In this document: positions 1 to 31,492 of the stretch, one piece after another | How positions within the stretch are numbered: the stretch's first letter is position 1 | Layout: each line of letters begins with the position of its first letter | Source: an uncultured Pelagibacteraceae bacterium | GTDB taxonomy: Bacteria; Pseudomonadota; Alphaproteobacteria; Pelagibacterales; Pelagibacteraceae | Length of the DNA: 61,369 nt | Direction of reading: 5' to 3' | Assembly: GCA_902593235.1 (NCBI GenBank) | Contig: CACJHS010000004.1 | Span: forward strand, 1 to 61,369 | Program-made: the position numbers and the translations under genes | The notes under the pieces: generated by a model | The model's database searches: none | The model's input: the letters and a program-made list of their open reading frames with translations, nothing else | What the model was told of the DNA's origin: nothing

Positions 1-999
1 GGTAGTGCTGCCATTTTAATGGATGTTAATAATGGAAATATTTTATCACTAGTTTCTTTGCCAGATTTTAATCCAAATGAAAGACAAAATATTACAGATG
101 TAAATTATATTAACAGGGTAACTAAAGGAACATATGAACTCGGCTCTGTATTTAAAGCATTTACTTTTGCTAGCGCCTTAAATGAAAAGGTAATTAAACC
201 AGAGACTGAATTTTTAGATTTACCCAAATCAATTAAATGTGACAAATACAGAATAGGTGAGTATGACAATGAAATACCGTCAGATTTAACTGCAGAGCAA
301 ATTTTAGTTAGATCTGGAAATATAGGATCTGTCAGAATTGCTCAAAAAATTGGCCCAGAAAAATTTAAATTATTTTTAGAAAAAGTTGGCGTGTTAAGTG
401 ATATTGATTTTGATATTGAAGAAGTTGCTCCTCAAAAAAATTATGAATTTGGGAAATGTAGATTGGCTACAGCTTCTTTTGGACATGGAGTAGCGACTAC
501 AATTCTTCAATTGGCAAAAGGTTATGCAGTTTTATCAAATGGTGGTTATGAAATTAAGCCAACATTAATTTTTAAAGAAAATAATTTTAAGCAAAAAAAC
601 GAGAGAATATTAAACAGAGGTATTTCAGAACAAGTTGTTAAGGCTTTAAGAAAAATTGTAAATACTGAGGAAGGCACAGCTAAATTTGCAGATGTTCAAA
701 ATTATGAAGTTGCTGGAAAAACAGGAACTGCTGATCAACCTGAGGGAGGAGCATATTCTGAAGCAAAAATAAATACTTTTGCCTCCATTTTTCCCACTTC
801 AAATCCACAATTTGTTTTTGTCGTAATGTTGGATACTCCAAAAAAATCTAAAGATTATTATTATAAGTATAGACACCGAAAAGGAGGCTGGAAGGGTACA
901 CTTTATAATACTGCTGGCTGGACTTCAGTAGAGGTAGCTGGAAAAGTCATAGATAAAATCGGGCCTATTTTAGCCACAAAATATATAGAGGTTAATTAA
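1..999 (+). CDS. ftsI: Peptidoglycan D,D-transpeptidase FtsI (PBP3), 3' part only
   Basis: Division-specific penicillin-binding protein that cross-links septal peptidoglycan in the periplasm. The frame is open from base 1, so the N-terminal part, with the membrane anchor and dimerisation domain, lies outside the window. The ATG at 19 is internal and not the start. Counting from base 1, all three transpeptidase motifs are visible: SVFK at residues 49-52 (catalytic Ser49), SGN at 105-107 and KTGT at 240-243. The stop lies 2 bases before the murE-murF start, so it is the upstream member of the dcw operon. FtsI rather than a class A PBP or PBP2 is inferred from this position. Confidence 0.93.
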   Translation, partial: GSAAILMDVNNGNILSLVSLPDFNPNERQNITDVNYINRVTKGTYELGSVFKAFTFASALNEKVIKPETEFLDLPKSIKCDKYRIGEYDNEIPSDLTAEQILVRSGNIGSVRIAQKIGPEKFKLFLEKVGVLSDIDFDIEEVAPQKNYEFGKCRLATASFGHGVATTILQLAKGYAVLSNGGYEIKPTLIFKENNFKQKNERILNRGISEQVVKALRKIVNTEEGTAKFADVQNYEVAGKTGTADQPEGGAYSEAKINTFASIFPTSNPQFVFVVMLDTPKKSKDYYYKYRHRKGGWKGTLYNTAGWTSVEVAGKVIDKIGPILATKYIEVN

Positions 1000-1001
1000 T
1001 T

Positions 1002-3845
1002 ATGCTTCTAGGGAACTACTTTCATAACATAAATAAAAATTATAGGAATTTTTCCTTTTCAGGAATTTCATTTAATACGAAGAGTATTAAAAAAAATAAT
1101 ATTTTTTTTGCAATCAAAGGAAATTCTATTGATGGTAATAAATTTATTACTAAAGCAATTAAGAAAGGATCAAAAATTATTGTTACTGAAAAAAAAACAA
1201 ATCAATTACAAAATGGAATTTTGTATATTCATACAAAGAATGTAAGAAAATTATTAGCTGAAACTGCTTTTAAAATTTATAATAAAAAACCAAAAAATTT
1301 AATTGCAGTTACTGGTACTAACGGAAAATCATCGGTTGCAGATTTTTATTATCAAATATTAAAATTAAATAATAAAAAAGGTGCTTCAATTGGTACATTA
1401 GGTGTTAAATCAAAAAGTATTAATTTGAATTTATCTAATACAACAATAGATCCAATCAAATTGGCTAAAATATTAAGCAAGTTGAAAAATCAAAAAATAG
1501 AGAATGTAATTATGGAAGCCTCAAGCCATGGTTTAAAGCAAAATAGATTAGATGGTTTAAAGTTTAATTCAGGTATATTTACTAATCTATCCCAGGATCA
1601 TCTTGATTATCATAAAAATTTAAAAAACTATTTAAATGCAAAACTTTATTTATTTGAAAACCTAATCTCAAAAAGAGGAAATGTAATTACAGATCAATTA
1701 ATACCTGAGTTTAAAAACATAAGAAAAATTGCAATTAATAAGAAATTAAAATTGCATACACTTAATGATGGGAAAAATAATCTAGAGCTTTTATCTCATA
1801 ATTTTAAAGGAGAGGGTCAATTTCTTAAAATTAAATTGAATAGCTCAATAAGGAATATAAATTTAAATTTAATTGGAAAAATACAATTAAAAAATGTTTT
1901 GATGGCAATAATTGCAGCAAAATATAGCGGTATTAGTATAAATAAAATTTTAAATACAATTCCAAAATTAAAAACTGTTGAGGGAAGGTTTGAAAAAATT
2001 GGTAAAATTAAAAATCAATCAAAAGTAATTCTTGATTACGCTCATACGCCTGATGCTCTAAAAACTTGTCTTTTAAATCTTAGAGAACAATTTCCTAATA
2101 AAACAATCACAGTGTTATTCGGTTGTGGGGGAAATAGGGATCAAAATAAAAGATCAAAAATGGGGAAAGCAGCTAGTGATTTTGCAGATAGTATCATTCT
2201 TACAAATGATAATCCTAGATTTGAAAATCCTCAAAAAATAAGAAGTGATATAAAAAAGGGAATTAAAAAAAAGAGAATTATTGAAATATCTAATAGAGCA
2301 ATAGCAATAACACAAGCCATTCATAATTTGAACTCAGGGGATATTTTGTTGGTTGCTGGGAAAGGCCATGAGAAAACACAAGATATTGGAAATAAGAAAA
2401 TTTTCTTTTCAGACAGAAAGGTAATTCTCAATGCTATTAAGCATAAAAATAATAATTTATCAGATAATTTAAAATTAAATGTTGTTAAAGAGGCAGCTAA
2501 AATTAAAAAATTATCTGCTTCCATATCTTTAAAAACAGCAAGAATTAATTCTCAAGAAGTTACTAAAAATGATATTTTTTTTGCTATTAAGGGAAAAAAA
2601 AATGATGGTAATAAATTTGTTTCACAATCATTCAAAAAAAAAGCATCATTAGCTGTAGTGAATAAAATTCAAAAAAAATTTAATATAAATCGACAGATTA
2701 AAGTAAAAAATACTCTGAATTTCTTAATAAGTATTTCAAAAAATTTTAGAAAAAGTATTGATACAAATATTATAGCTATCACAGGCAGTTGTGGCAAAAC
2801 TACACTTAAAGAATTGTTGGGCAATGTATTAAGTAAAATTTCAAAAGTAAGTATTTCTCCAAAATCTTATAACAATAAATTTGGGGTTCCTTTAAGTCTT
2901 TTTAATTTAAAACAAAATGATGAATTTGGAATTTTAGAAATTGGAATGGATAAAAAAGGAGAAATTGACTATTTGTCTAAAATTATAAAACCAGATGTTG
3001 GTGTGATAACAAATATAAATTATGCACATGCTAAAAATTTTAAAAATATTAAACAAATTGCTTTGGCAAAATCTGAAATTATTAACAACATAAAGCCTAA
3101 TGGTTATGCTGTATTAAATGCAGACGACAGTTTTTTTCAATTACATAAAAAAATTGCCAAAAAAAAGAAAATTAAAGTAATTTCTTTTGGTATTAAAAGT
3201 CAGAAATCAGACATTAAATTAAATAATATACAGCCTTTCGGAAAAAATTTTAGAATTAATATTAGATTAAATAATAAAAAAAAGTATTTTGTATTATCTA
3301 ACGATTTTCAAAACAATATATCCAACACACTTTCTGCTTTAGCAGTTATCAGTATTTATAAAAATATATTTAAACTTAATGAAAATATTTTTCTCAATTT
3401 TAAAATTCCTGCAGGAAGAGGAGACCATTCTCTAGTAAAAATTGATAATAAAAAAATTAATTTAATTGATCAAAGTTATAATTCAAATCCTCTATCATTA
3501 AAATCAGCAATAAAAAATTTTGATAAAATAAGCTCAAAAAAATCAAATAAATATCTACTAATTGGTGACATGTTAGAGCTCGGTAGACATTCTAAAAAAC
3601 TTCATCAATCTATTGCTCCAATAATTAATCAAACTAAGATAGATAAGGTATTTGTTAAAGGTAAAATGGCATCTATAATATTTGCAGGCATCTCAAAAGC
3701 CAAAAAAGGCAGGATTTTATTAAACAAATCTGAAATTATTGAATTGATTAGAAAAGACTTAAATAATAATGATTATTTAATGATTAAGGCCTCACTTGCG
3801 ACAGGATTTAACGACATAGTAAAAGATCTGAAAGGATTCAATTAA
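1002..3845 (+). CDS. murEF: Fused MurE-MurF: UDP-MurNAc-tripeptide ligase and D-Ala-D-Ala adding ligase
   Basis: One uninterrupted 947-residue frame covering two successive cytoplasmic Mur ligases. Residues 1 to about 480 are MurE, adding the third peptide residue: P-loop TGTNGKS at 104-110, EASSHGL, DYAHTPDAL, and DNPR at 403-406, the motif associated with meso-diaminopimelate. Residues about 490-947 are MurF, adding D-Ala-D-Ala: a second N-terminal domain with NDIFFAIKG and a second P-loop TGSCGKTT at 594-601. The two N-terminal domains visibly resemble each other (NNIFFAIKG and NDIFFAIKG). In most bacteria these are separate genes of about 450-500 codons each. The stop touches the mraY start. 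Confidence 0.93.
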   Translation: MLLGNYFHNINKNYRNFSFSGISFNTKSIKKNNIFFAIKGNSIDGNKFITKAIKKGSKIIVTEKKTNQLQNGILYIHTKNVRKLLAETAFKIYNKKPKNLIAVTGTNGKSSVADFYYQILKLNNKKGASIGTLGVKSKSINLNLSNTTIDPIKLAKILSKLKNQKIENVIMEASSHGLKQNRLDGLKFNSGIFTNLSQDHLDYHKNLKNYLNAKLYLFENLISKRGNVITDQLIPEFKNIRKIAINKKLKLHTLNDGKNNLELLSHNFKGEGQFLKIKLNSSIRNINLNLIGKIQLKNVLMAIIAAKYSGISINKILNTIPKLKTVEGRFEKIGKIKNQSKVILDYAHTPDALKTCLLNLREQFPNKTITVLFGCGGNRDQNKRSKMGKAASDFADSIILTNDNPRFENPQKIRSDIKKGIKKKRIIEISNRAIAITQAIHNLNSGDILLVAGKGHEKTQDIGNKKIFFSDRKVILNAIKHKNNNLSDNLKLNVVKEAAKIKKLSASISLKTARINSQEVTKNDIFFAIKGKKNDGNKFVSQSFKKKASLAVVNKIQKKFNINRQIKVKNTLNFLISISKNFRKSIDTNIIAITGSCGKTTLKELLGNVLSKISKVSISPKSYNNKFGVPLSLFNLKQNDEFGILEIGMDKKGEIDYLSKIIKPDVGVITNINYAHAKNFKNIKQIALAKSEIINNIKPNGYAVLNADDSFFQLHKKIAKKKKIKVISFGIKSQKSDIKLNNIQPFGKNFRINIRLNNKKKYFVLSNDFQNNISNTLSALAVISIYKNIFKLNENIFLNFKIPAGRGDHSLVKIDNKKINLIDQSYNSNPLSLKSAIKNFDKISSKKSNKYLLIGDMLELGRHSKKLHQSIAPIINQTKIDKVFVKGKMASIIFAGISKAKKGRILLNKSEIIELIRKDLNNNDYLMIKASLATGFNDIVKDLKGFN

Positions 3846-10694: not shown

Positions 10695-11609
10695 TTGAAA
10701 AAAAAAGTACTTATATTGTCTGGAGGAATCTCTAAAGAGAGGTTAATCAGTCTTGATACAGGTTTGCAGGTTGCTAAAGAATTAAAAAAAAATGGTTATA
10801 AAGTTAAAATATCTGAACCAGATAATAATTTAGAAAAAAATATAAAAAATTTTAAACCCAACGTAATTTTTAATGCTCTGCATGGTCAATTCGGTGAAGA
10901 CGGATATATTCAAACTATTTTAGAACAATTTAATATTCCTTATACTCATTCAGGTATAATTCCATCGTCTATAGCTATGGATAAAGAAATTTCAAAAAAA
11001 ATATTTATTAAAAATAAAATAAAAACTCCTAAATTTTTTACCTTTTCTTATGATATTAAAGTTCTTAATTTAATTAAGAAAATAGAAAAAAAACTTGGTT
11101 TTCCAGTAGTAGTAAAACCCCTAAATGAAGGTTCAAGCGTAAATGTTTATATTTGTAACAAGAAAAATATAAATAAGATTTTAAATGGACTTAAAAATTA
11201 TAAAAAAATAATGATCGAAGAGTTTATTAGTGGCAGGGAAATACAAGTTGCAATAATGGGGAATACTAAGTTAGGAGCAATTGAGCTTAAACCAAAGAGA
11301 AAATTTTATGATTATAAAGCTAAATATAATTCTAGTGCAAAAACCGAACATATTATTCCTGTCAATTTATCGAAAAAAAAATTAAGTCAAATAATGAATA
11401 TGGCTCTAAAAGCACATAAAGTAATTGGTTGCAAAGGGGTTACAAGATCTGATTTTAAATATTATCAAGGAAAATTTTTTTTGTTGGAAATAAATACCCA
11501 ACCTGGGATGACAAAGCTATCTCTCGTTCCAGAAATAGCTGAGCATAAAGGCATAAACTTTCTAAAACTTATAGAATGGATATTAAAAGATGCATCAACA
11601 AAAAGGTAA
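10695..11609 (+). CDS. ddl: D-alanine--D-alanine ligase
   Basis: ATP-grasp ligase forming the D-Ala-D-Ala dipeptide used by the MurF half of the fused enzyme. Signatures are ALHGQFGEDG, the ATP-grasp loop PLNEGSSVNVY and the metal-binding EINTQPGMT. The start is TTG at 10695, one base after the murB stop. The N-terminus MKKKVLILSGG fits the family start with SKERLISL following, so a non-ATG start is the best reading. Length 304 residues. Confidence 0.95.
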   Translation: MKKKVLILSGGISKERLISLDTGLQVAKELKKNGYKVKISEPDNNLEKNIKNFKPNVIFNALHGQFGEDGYIQTILEQFNIPYTHSGIIPSSIAMDKEISKKIFIKNKIKTPKFFTFSYDIKVLNLIKKIEKKLGFPVVVKPLNEGSSVNVYICNKKNINKILNGLKNYKKIMIEEFISGREIQVAIMGNTKLGAIELKPKRKFYDYKAKYNSSAKTEHIIPVNLSKKKLSQIMNMALKAHKVIGCKGVTRSDFKYYQGKFFLLEINTQPGMTKLSLVPEIAEHKGINFLKLIEWILKDASTKR

Positions 11610-12261
11610 AAAAATTTTTATATACCTTTTTTTAATGACTTTGGTTGGATCAATCAATAACCTTGAATTAAATAATTATAAAATTTTTGAAATAAGAAAT
11701 ATAGATATTTCAGGTCTAACTAATTTAGAAAACTCAGAAATAAAAAAAAAAATAAAAAGTTTAAATTTAAAGAACATACTATTATTAAATAGATTTGAAT
11801 TATCTCAAATAATTGATTCTAATCCTCTAGTACAAAATTATGAGGTTATTAAAATTTATCCATCATCTATTGATATAAAAATTTTAAAAACAAAACTTTT
11901 AGCGAAATTAAATAAAGATGGAAAAACATTATTCTTAGGATCTAATGGAAAGTTATCTGAGTACAATTTTTCAAAAAAAAGTTTACCTTTTATATTTGGT
12001 AATCCTGACATTGATGATTTTTTGAATTTAAAAAATGAAATTGATGATTCAAAATTTTCTTATATAGAATTTAAAAATTTTTATTTTTTTCCTTCAGGTA
12101 GATGGGATTTGGAGCTTAAAAATAATATTCTAATTAAATTATCCGAAAATGAAATTAATGATTCTTTGGATTATGCATTTGATTTTATGAAAAATAATAA
12201 TATTGATAATTTTAAAGCAATAGATTTAAGAGTTAAAAATCAAATAATACTTAATGACTAA
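11590..12261 (+). CDS. ftsQ: Cell division protein FtsQ
   Basis: Bitopic divisome protein with a short cytoplasmic N-terminus, one membrane segment (about residues 8-22) and a POTRA domain, where FEIRNIDISGLTNLEN starts the typical fold and the segment NPLVQNYEVIKIYPSSIDI follows. It overlaps the end of ddl by 20 bases. At 223 residues it is shorter than typical FtsQ (about 270-300), mainly in the cytoplasmic and C-terminal tails. Assignment rests on the POTRA pattern and the ddl-ftsQ-ftsA order. Confidence 0.88.
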   Translation: MHQQKGKKIFIYLFLMTLVGSINNLELNNYKIFEIRNIDISGLTNLENSEIKKKIKSLNLKNILLLNRFELSQIIDSNPLVQNYEVIKIYPSSIDIKILKTKLLAKLNKDGKTLFLGSNGKLSEYNFSKKSLPFIFGNPDIDDFLNLKNEIDDSKFSYIEFKNFYFFPSGRWDLELKNNILIKLSENEINDSLDYAFDFMKNNNIDNFKAIDLRVKNQIILND

Positions 12262-12958
12262 AGAACTTGATCTTGATACATATCTAATTATCACTAATTA
12301 TAAATTTGTAATTTGTTTATTTAATAAAAAAAATTTTAAAAGTATATACATTCAAGAGTTTGAATTTAAAAATAACACTGGAGCTATAGATTTTAATTCT
12401 TTAAGTAAATTCCTTGAGAATAATATATTCAAAATTGAAAAATTAACTTCTAAGTTTATAAATAATATAATTGTAGTTATTGATATCAAAGAAATCAAAG
12501 ATCTAAATATAGGTATTAAAAAAAAAAATTATGTTGAAAATTTAAATTCTAAAAATTTAGAAATAATAATTTCAGAAGCCAAAGATTTGTTTAAAGAAAC
12601 TTACCTAGATCAAAAAATTATGCATATAATTATCCAAAATTATTTAATTAATGGAAAAAATTATTTGCAATTTCAAAAAAATTTGCAAGTCAATGATCTT
12701 GGATTAGAAATTAAATTTATATCGGTTTCTAATAAATTGTCCCATCAATTAGAAAAAGTTTTAGAAAAATATCAAATTAAAATTAGTAAATATATAAGTG
12801 GGAATTATGTAGAAAATTATTTTCAAGGTAAAAGGAATGAATTTCCAGTTATGGTTTATGAGATAATTAATGGAATAAATGAAAATGAGGTTATGTTAGT
12901 ACCCAAAAATACAACAAATAGGGGATTTTTTGAAAAGTTTTTTCAATTATTTAGCTAA
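12254..12958 (+). CDS. ftsA: Shortened FtsA-like protein (1C domain and membrane tail, no ATPase half)
   Basis: The 234-residue product lines up by eye with the first half of FtsA. Strands VYLAL/IIVVI, the E-x3-A helix (SEAKDLFKE at about 107-115), IMHIIIQNYLINGK at about 122-135 (FtsA: HVIPQEYxIDG) and LEIKFISVSNKLSHQLEKVL at about 151-170 match domain 1C. The chain then jumps to a tail whose last residues, GFFEKFFQLFS, resemble the amphipathic membrane-targeting helix of FtsA. The phosphate-binding loop DIGGGT and the 2A/2B actin-like domains of an FtsA of about 420 residues are absent. It overlaps ftsQ by 8 bases. FtsA ancestry is inferred from position and alignment by eye, and reduced function is likely. 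It could also be a distinct lineage-specific divisome linker. Confidence 0.68.
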   Translation: MTKELDLDTYLIITNYKFVICLFNKKNFKSIYIQEFEFKNNTGAIDFNSLSKFLENNIFKIEKLTSKFINNIIVVIDIKEIKDLNIGIKKKNYVENLNSKNLEIIISEAKDLFKETYLDQKIMHIIIQNYLINGKNYLQFQKNLQVNDLGLEIKFISVSNKLSHQLEKVLEKYQIKISKYISGNYVENYFQGKRNEFPVMVYEIINGINENEVMLVPKNTTNRGFFEKFFQLFS

Positions 12959-13022: not shown

Positions 13023-13943
13023 GTGTCTTACTTAACTCAAAAAACAATAAAAAACCCAATTTCATTTAAAGGTATAGGCCTTCATACAGGTTTAACAGTT
13101 AGCGTCTGTATAAAGCCAGCTGGACCAGATACAGGAATAGTTTTTAAAAGAATAGATTTAAAAACAAATAATTTAGTTTATCCAAATTTTATGAACGTAA
13201 GTAATACTTCACTCAACACAACTATTACTAATGAATTTGGTGTAAAAGTTTCCACAATAGAACATTTGATGGGAGCTTTATTTGGCCTAGGTATAGATAA
13301 CGCAATTATCGAATTAAATAATGAAGAGGTTCCAATTCTTGATGGATCTGCAAAAGAATTTATTGAAAAAATAATCCCAGGAGGCTTTGAAATAAGTGAA
13401 GCTCCAATAAAAATAATTAAAATAAATAAAAAAGTTGAATTTAAAGATAAAGAAAGAACTATATCAATTCAGCCTTCAAAATTAAGTTTGGATATAGATT
13501 TTGAACTAAATTACAATAATCCAGTAATTGGAAATCAAAGAAATAAAATTAATGTATATGAAGATAATTTAGAGGAGATATTTAATTCAAGAACATTTTG
13601 TTTATTTGAAGACATTGAAGCAATTAAAAAAATTGGACTAGCTAAAGGTGGAAGTTTGGAAAACGCAGTTGTTGTTAAGGGCGATAAAATACTAAATGAC
13701 AATGGTTTAAGAAATGAAAAAGAATTTGTAAATCATAAAATCCTGGATTGTATTGGAGATTTATTTACCTCTGGCTATAGAATTGTTGGGAGTGTTTATT
13801 GTTCTAAAGGAGGACATTTCCTCACAAATGAGTTGTTAAGAAAAGTATTTAAAAATAGTGAAAATTTTTCAATAATTGAAATTAAAGAACGTAATTTACC
13901 TCATAATTTGATCAACAGAAGTTTTTTAAAATCAATAGCATAA
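13023..13943 (+). CDS. lpxC: UDP-3-O-acyl-N-acetylglucosamine deacetylase LpxC
   Basis: Zn-dependent committed step of lipid A synthesis. Motifs: STIEHLMGAL (metal His), the EVPILDGSA segment and HKILDCIGDL (second metal His and Asp). The start is GTG at 13023, giving MSYLTQKTIKNPISFKGIGLH, the usual N-terminal pattern (GxGLHTG). Length 306 residues is normal. The gene follows the FtsA-like gene after 64 bases, where ftsZ is normally found. Confidence 0.96.
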   Translation: MSYLTQKTIKNPISFKGIGLHTGLTVSVCIKPAGPDTGIVFKRIDLKTNNLVYPNFMNVSNTSLNTTITNEFGVKVSTIEHLMGALFGLGIDNAIIELNNEEVPILDGSAKEFIEKIIPGGFEISEAPIKIIKINKKVEFKDKERTISIQPSKLSLDIDFELNYNNPVIGNQRNKINVYEDNLEEIFNSRTFCLFEDIEAIKKIGLAKGGSLENAVVVKGDKILNDNGLRNEKEFVNHKILDCIGDLFTSGYRIVGSVYCSKGGHFLTNELLRKVFKNSENFSIIEIKERNLPHNLINRSFLKSIA

Positions 13944-30718: not shown

Positions 30719-31492
30719 ATGAAAAAACTTAAACTGTTTGCTTTAGCAGCTATGGCTCTGATTGGATTTTCAGGTATAGCTATTGCAGCAGACGCTACGA
30801 TGTTGATGCAAGATGACTTCGTCGGAATTTCATTCTGGGTTATCTCTATGGGAATGTTAGCAGCTACTGCTTTCTTTTTCATGGAAGCAGGCAATGTCGC
30901 ATCAGGCTGGAGAACATCAGTTATTGTTGCTGGTCTAGTAACTGGTATTGCATTCATACACTACATGTATATGAGAGAAGTATGGGTTGCTACTGGAGAC
31001 TCACCAACTGTTTACAGATACATTGACTGGTTAATCACTGTGCCATTACAGATGGTAGAATTCTATTTAATTCTAGCAGCTATTGGTAAAGCAAACTCTG
31101 GAATGTTCTGGAGATTGTTAATTGGTTCATTAGTAATGCTTATCGGTGGATACTTAGGTGAAGCAGGATACATTAATGCTACACTAGGTTTCATCATCGG
31201 AATGGCAGGTTGGGTATACATTCTTTATGAAGTATTCTCAGGTGAAGCTGGTAAAGCTGCACAGAAGAGTGGTAACAAAGCTCTTGTAACTGCATTTGGA
31301 GCAATGAGAATGATCGTTACAGTAGGTTGGGCAATTTACCCATTAGGTTATGTATTTGGTTACTTAACTGGTGGTGTAGACGCTGACTCACTTAACGTCG
31401 TTTACAACTTAGCTGACTTCATTAACAAAATTGCATTTGGTCTAGTAATCTGGGCTGCTGCAACTAGTTCAAGCGGAAGAAGAGCTAAGTAA
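30719..31492 (+). CDS. Proteorhodopsin, light-driven proton pump, blue-absorbing type
   Basis: Seven-helix retinal protein of 257 residues with a cleavable-looking signal (MKKLKLFALAAMALIGFSG). Key residues: His81 (His75 of the reference protein), Asp103 proton acceptor (D97), Thr107 (T101), Glu114 proton donor (E108) and the retinal Lys237 in FINKIAFG (K231). The spectral tuning residue is Gln111 (position 105), in DWLITVPLQMVEFYLIL, which predicts blue absorption. Codon usage is visibly GC-richer and more biased than in neighbours, consistent with high expression. A strong terminator follows. Confidence 0.98.
   Translation: MKKLKLFALAAMALIGFSGIAIAADATMLMQDDFVGISFWVISMGMLAATAFFFMEAGNVASGWRTSVIVAGLVTGIAFIHYMYMREVWVATGDSPTVYRYIDWLITVPLQMVEFYLILAAIGKANSGMFWRLLIGSLVMLIGGYLGEAGYINATLGFIIGMAGWVYILYEVFSGEAGKAAQKSGNKALVTAFGAMRMIVTVGWAIYPLGYVFGYLTGGVDADSLNVVYNLADFINKIAFGLVIWAAATSSSGRRAK

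Follow-up and report, generated by a model that had tools for sequence, protein, structure and literature searches.

The window analyzed here is the whole 61,369-nucleotide stretch of contig CACJHS010000004.1 (assembly GCA_902593235.1), which comes from an uncultured bacterium of the family Pelagibacteraceae. Between ftsQ and lpxC it carries an intact gene of 234 codons with an ATG start, and the encoded protein is derived from the cell division protein FtsA. The chain retains FtsA subdomains IA and IC and the C-terminal tail, and it lacks the part of the actin-like fold formed by IIA and IIB. Because the membrane, IC and cleft parts are kept while the parts serving ATP and FtsZ are dropped, we read this short FtsA as a nucleotide-free, membrane-bound IA-IC adaptor of the divisome, without IIB and without IIA save for its last helix (estimated probability, about 0.65).

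Identity and domain content of the short FtsA

The NCBIfam ftsA profile (TIGR01174) matched residues 45 to 183 of the protein over profile positions 44 to 180 of 371, with an E value of 5.3e-6. The score of 25.8 bits did not reach the curated cutoff of 175.85 bits, which was exceeded in only 9 of 148 SAR11 genomes, most of them falling below it. A Pfam search of the short FtsA gave no FtsA match, just a chance-level, below-cutoff similarity to an unrelated family (E, 0.029), and the Pfam SHS2_FTSA model found nothing in the window and gave a subthreshold match in the short form of genome G008. When a profile of 29 short homologues was searched against the PDB, three distinct sequences were returned up to an E value of 10, all of them FtsA. 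The AlphaFold2 model of the window protein (mean predicted local distance difference test [pLDDT], 84; predicted template modeling score [pTM], 0.80) displayed the FtsA arrangement of IA and IC (SHS2). In a Foldseek comparison of this model, the best 19 PDB rows comprised 16 titled FtsA and 3, from entry 3wt0, titled "Cell Division Protein" (E values, 1.1e-11 to 1.1e-7). Profile search, PDB sequence search and structure model thus confirm that the gene, which lies beside ftsQ in the dcw cluster, encodes an FtsA-derived protein. An earlier reading of the sequence by itself (the original prediction) had proposed this identity; the structural comparison bore it out, and the profile evidence did so through TIGR01174, although below the cutoff and without an SHS2_FTSA match.

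At an E value of ≤1e-3, 2116 database proteins matched the short FtsA, and 116 of the 120 listed were 231 to 234 amino acids (aa) long. Among the listed names, long forms were annotated as "cell division protein FtsA" and short forms mostly as "hypothetical protein."

Alignment with full-length relatives from the genus showed that the missing segment follows the second part of IA and runs from the first IIA strand, with its phosphate-2 loop, through IIB and the adenosine motif, all of which are absent. Beyond this gap the short forms align again from the last IIA helix onward, through the linker and a GFFEKFF tail (GFFEKFFQLFS in the window). Over this end piece, 31 of 39 residues were identical between the short form of G107 and the long form of G025, and the best other stretch gave 9. 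The window protein therefore resembles FtsA (TIGR01174; PDB 7q6d, 7q6i and 4a2a) in its locus, IA-IC fold, last IIA helix and amphipathic tail, but differs in lacking the IIA core, IIB, the phosphate-2 loop and the adenosine motif, with phosphate-1 degenerate. As a result, it has no known FtsZ site or ATP pocket. An aspartate or glutamate persists at phosphate-1 in the short forms of G107 and G090, as a recent loss might be expected to leave. The original prediction was right that the ATPase half is missing; its picture of a module made of 1C only was right about IC but too narrow, since the protein also retains IA and the last IIA helix and the unit is IA plus IC.

The tail was predicted, from its sequence and its conservation in both forms, to be an amphipathic membrane helix, as had been suspected from the start. 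In hydrophobic moment the last 11 residues ranked 14 of 224 stretches, and 315 of 10,000 shuffles reached the same value. An AlphaFold2 model of one long form (pLDDT, 60; pTM, 0.47) was set aside.

Distribution and evolution of the two forms

To describe the genus, 201 genomes (Pelagibacteraceae) were searched; lpxC was found in 143, and 130 loci were read, the other 13, picked by eye, being left out with lpxC partial or near a contig start. Intact short genes occupied 69 of the 130 loci and long genes (368 to 399 aa) occupied 43. The rest comprised 1 long-type piece (G208), 3 split frames, 9 loci truncated where the contig ends and 5 where no such gene was seen; in four of these five the stretch stops before its place, and in G125 lpxC adjoins unrelated genes. 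Another 30 genomes, selected in part for a weak FtsA score and hence biased toward short forms, gave 23 short and 2 long genes, with 2 loci cut, 2 lacking the gene before the contig end and 1 genome without lpxC. In total, 92 intact short genes (220 to 244 aa) and 45 long genes (368 to 399 aa) were found at the ftsA locus of the genus. The 132-aa piece in G208, which the script had counted as short, is excluded from the 92.

Long forms (e.g., G230, 369 aa) share with short ones the locus, its neighbors and an alignable IA, IC and tail, but retain IIA, IIB and both phosphate loops. The long forms tested matched TIGR01174 at E values of 1.5e-18 to 1.8e-29 and scored above the PF14450 cutoff in 6 of 6 cases, versus 3 of 4 and 0 of 4 matches, respectively, for the short forms tested. 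The claim that "the lineage" has a minimal FtsA thus needs narrowing: it fits about half of the 130 loci but not the 43 with a full-length gene, nor the other SAR11 genera, where every FtsA listed is full-length.

Several loci were irregular. In G125 (L128), the unrelated genes beside lpxC point to a rearrangement or misassembly. In G208 (L155), the latter half of a long-type ftsA adjoins lpxC, and the opposite strand at the start of the contig carries a match to the first part; this contig is probably misassembled. In the single-contig genome G012 (L042), the short form is split by a frameshift, probably a sequencing indel, since mraY is frameshifted as well.

Outside the genus, other genera of the family had long frames of 378 to 420 aa in 20 of 22 genomes; two frames begin near a contig start. 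In the sister family, FtsA was 397 to 403 aa long in the 22 of 25 genomes where it was listed; the sole g4 genome is among the other three. A scan with the short-form profile kept 80 loci, all titled Pelagibacteraceae, Pelagibacterales or Candidatus Pelagibacter. The same profile matched 21 of 386 Alphaproteobacteria genomes, 3 in the genus (233 to 242 aa) and 18 outside it (400 to 452 aa); no short form was among the outside matches, and the 365 genomes that gave no match may still hold some. Titles and opening lines of abstracts in the open-access literature, a scope that leaves aside subscription papers and preprints, yielded no half-FtsA.

In the full-length FtsA proteins of g8, g9 and G113 (L268, L269, L270, L271, L283 and L154), the sequence deviates from the motifs of the nucleotide site (phosphate-1, phosphate-2 and adenosine), and these proteins are predicted pseudo-ATPases. 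Loss of the ATP site may therefore precede loss of the domains.

Nine close pairs of short genes had ratios of nonsynonymous to synonymous substitution rates (dN/dS) of 0.12 to 0.32, similar to ftsQ (0.13 to 0.28 in eight pairs); lpxC gave 0.03 to 0.07. In three pairs of long genes the IIA and IIB part was constrained, with a nonsynonymous-to-synonymous ratio (pN/pS) of 0.19 to 0.22. Selection thus seems to act on the short and the long form alike.

In a tree of FtsA residues 1 to 190, the short forms fell on one side of a branch with a Shimodaira-Hasegawa-like approximate likelihood ratio (SH-aLRT) support of 94 (97 with the tail added), and IA by itself gave 99.8 for this branch. Two changes of form were required on the IC tree and two on the FtsQ tree, neither of which rejected a single short-form clade in the approximately unbiased (AU) test (0.18 and 0.40). 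LpxC and Ddl, which flank ftsQ-ftsA, required three changes and rejected one clade (AU, 0.0056); FtsA in turn rejected two groupings of the LpxC-Ddl tree (AU, 0.0046 and 0.041). Recombination of ftsA and two to three separate losses both fit these trees, and IA may converge after the ATP site is lost.

Divisome partners and alternative explanations

In model bacteria, as set out in PMC8998562, subdomain 2B of FtsA binds FtsZ, the ATP pocket is built from 1A, 2A and 2B, recruitment of FtsN falls to 1C, and self-association proceeds by 1A-1C and 2A-2B contacts. PMC7613929 describes binding of the FtsN tail in the IA-IC cleft and lateral contacts made by IC. By analogy, the short chain, predicted to fold as IA plus IC with its tail inserted into the inner membrane, would neither bind ATP nor make the IIA-IIB filament contact, and the C-terminal peptide of FtsZ would not be held at a IIB site. 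The IA-IC cleft and the IC face could still hold cytoplasmic tails of proteins that act later in division, a role that the original prediction had also put forward, and copies of short FtsA could pair through the same surfaces. In that case FtsZ would be tethered by a different protein or through a new contact.

FtsZ was found in 27 of 30 genus genomes searched, and these sequences were read together with those of the window's own genome, G230 and G232. Every one of the 30 has EIPAFLRRQK followed by a single residue at its end; 14 stand beside an intact short FtsA, 1 beside a split gene and 15 beside a long form. Most genera read have a P-x-LF-like motif in the FtsZ linker, as judged by eye (L027, 1918 to 3417, and related loci). 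An NGLENF- or NDLKEF-like motif upstream of the C-terminal peptide was also seen by eye in FtsZ of the genus; a second docking peptide is possible.

Several observations weigh against an adaptor that has given up FtsZ and filament formation. The FtsZ peptide is unchanged beside short FtsA, which could mean that the short form still binds it, and neither SepF nor ZipA, the known alternative tethers sought, was found in any of 18 genomes. Given both facts, either another protein or short FtsA itself must take the peptide. FtsN was not found in the same 18 genomes, and the SPOR proteins read looked lipoprotein-like by eye. According to PMC5727935, FtsA of Neisseria gonorrhoeae contacts FtsN, FtsQ and FtsW via 2A and 2B, not 1C. 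The 1A-1C self-association described in PMC8998562 suggests that the short form might still polymerize. The tail helix has a pLDDT of only about 40 in the model, and its assignment rests more on conservation than on the model.

SPOR matches occurred in 6 of the 18 genomes (5 of 8 with the short form, 0 of 6 with the long form and 1 of 4 outside the genus). The difference between 5 of 8 and 0 of 6 for the lipoprotein-like gene (L313, L314, L316, L317 and L318) may only reflect profile sensitivity.

The alternative closest to these objections is that short FtsA is still the membrane tether of the Z ring, binding the FtsZ peptide at a new site in IA or IC without ATP. The retained tail, the invariant peptide (30 of 30, with 14 beside intact short genes) and the failure to find SepF or ZipA fit this idea; the known FtsZ site, however, lies in 2B (PMC8998562), which the short form lacks, and we consider a new site possible but rather unlikely. 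It is far less plausible that IIA and IIB are supplied by a separate gene. No full-length FtsA was detected elsewhere in the window's own genome (76.7% complete), in agreement with the original prediction: SHS2_FTSA found nothing and PF14450 found only MreB. MreB was considered as a hidden FtsA and rejected, the match being a separate 344-aa mreB gene on contig C2, a full-length actin-like ATPase of the kind with a DIGGGT loop, to which the short protein does not belong. Nor was a second FtsA found in the single-contig short-form genome G105 (99% complete), whose one TIGR01174 match was a 359-aa frame covering profile positions 169 to 346, as MreB does. In other short-form genomes TIGR01174 gave between one and four matches, of which only some are among those listed. 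A split FtsA is accordingly exceedingly improbable.

Decay toward loss could account for the fast divergence of the short forms (median pairwise identity, 32%) and for the 3 split frames in 130 loci, of which two have the size of the short type. Against it, dN/dS is well below 1 in all nine pairs, length stays at 220 to 244 aa across 92 genes and the split in G012 is accompanied by the mraY frameshift, so that sequencing indels are likely; we regard a relic as very unlikely. An assembly, frameshift or deletion artifact might be suspected in a draft of 52 contigs, but the locus in other genomes, with 92 intact short genes (including those of the single-contig genomes G105, G226, G227 and G231), and the 2116 database relatives make this possibility negligible. 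Recruitment away from division, as an adaptor of the PilM or GspL type, also merits little credence. PilM carries the IIA/IIB half and sits in another operon; GspL/EpsL has one transmembrane helix and no amphipathic tail. PilM and the cytoplasmic domain of GspL were the next fold matches, yet FtsA ranked first by both sequence and fold, and the gene has kept its place in the dcw locus between ftsQ and lpxC. PilM had a lower fold score than FtsA, and its solved structures, 5eox and 5eou among them, contain nucleotide; the GspL/EpsL domain, of type II secretion, showed 5 to 8% identity. PilM is actin-like and has an IC subdomain, and the PilN tail is held in its IA-IC cleft, according to PMC7613929.

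Genomic neighborhood and implications

The gene order at the ftsA locus was the same in nearly all genus genomes read (first 19 loci, then 130). The separation of ftsZ from ftsA was considered as part of the oddity and rejected, as ftsZ comes first in the cluster in 14 of the 17 stretches read across the order; the three without FtsZ are G037, G038 and G039, two of which stop at a contig end.

Features of the short ftsA gene and its neighbors in the window
Feature	Coordinates	Strand	Basis
Short ftsA gene, 234 aa	12254..12958	+	Open reading frame (ORF) call, TIGR01174, AlphaFold2 model, Foldseek
Subdomain IA, first part, residues 1-78; phosphate-1 motif degenerate	12254..12487	+	AlphaFold2 strands and helix, alignment; boundaries approximate
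Subdomain IC (SHS2), residues 79-158	12488..12727	+	Profile, AlphaFold2 model, PDB comparison; boundaries approximate
Subdomain IA, second part, residues 159-190	12728..12823	+	AlphaFold2 model, alignment
Junction, site of IIA and IIB in full-length relatives	12824..12838	+	Alignment with long forms of the genus
Retained last IIA helix, residues 195-209	12836..12880	+	Model helix 197-205; E. coli FtsA 7q6d aligned over 6..388
Linker, E-V-x-x-V-P-K type	12881..12919	+	Alignment
C-terminal amphipathic, membrane-helix-like tail RGFFEKFFQLFS	12920..12955	+	Conserved in short and long forms; hydrophobic moment
ddl	10695..11609	+	Gene name by eye
ftsQ, 8-base overlap of its end with the start of short ftsA	11590..12261	+	Gene name by eye
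lpxC	13023..13943	+	Gene name by eye

Elsewhere in the window, MurE and MurF are apparently fused in one 947-aa ORF (1002 to 3845), in which the Mur ligase middle domain and the Mur ligase C domain each match twice. At this place, similar-sized single ORFs occur in g8 and g9 and two separate ORFs in g5, g6, g7 and f2, all named by size and place. The contig starts within a transpeptidase gene (PF00905; 19 to 999), by its place ftsI, and contig C5, which carries ftsZ-rsmH, probably joins there. A bacteriorhodopsin-like gene (PF01036) at 30719 to 31492 presumably encodes a proteorhodopsin.

FtsA is regarded as an actin that runs division through its ATP cycle, polymerization and 2B-FtsZ contact. 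We estimate, again at about 0.65, that in much of a genus dominant in the surface ocean, division relies on a nonactin, ATP-free half-FtsA. The discarded half, with the actin ATPase and the FtsZ-binding part that are regarded as central to anchoring the Z ring, would be one that relatives keep at the same locus. The occurrence of full-length and half forms at one locus in close relatives is a natural domain-deletion experiment. If our reading is true, a large natural set of species that retain FtsZ with its peptide, yet have just the IA-IC half of FtsA, would reveal what functions of FtsA are dispensable, and it would predict an unrecognized FtsZ tether in some of the commonest cells in the sea.
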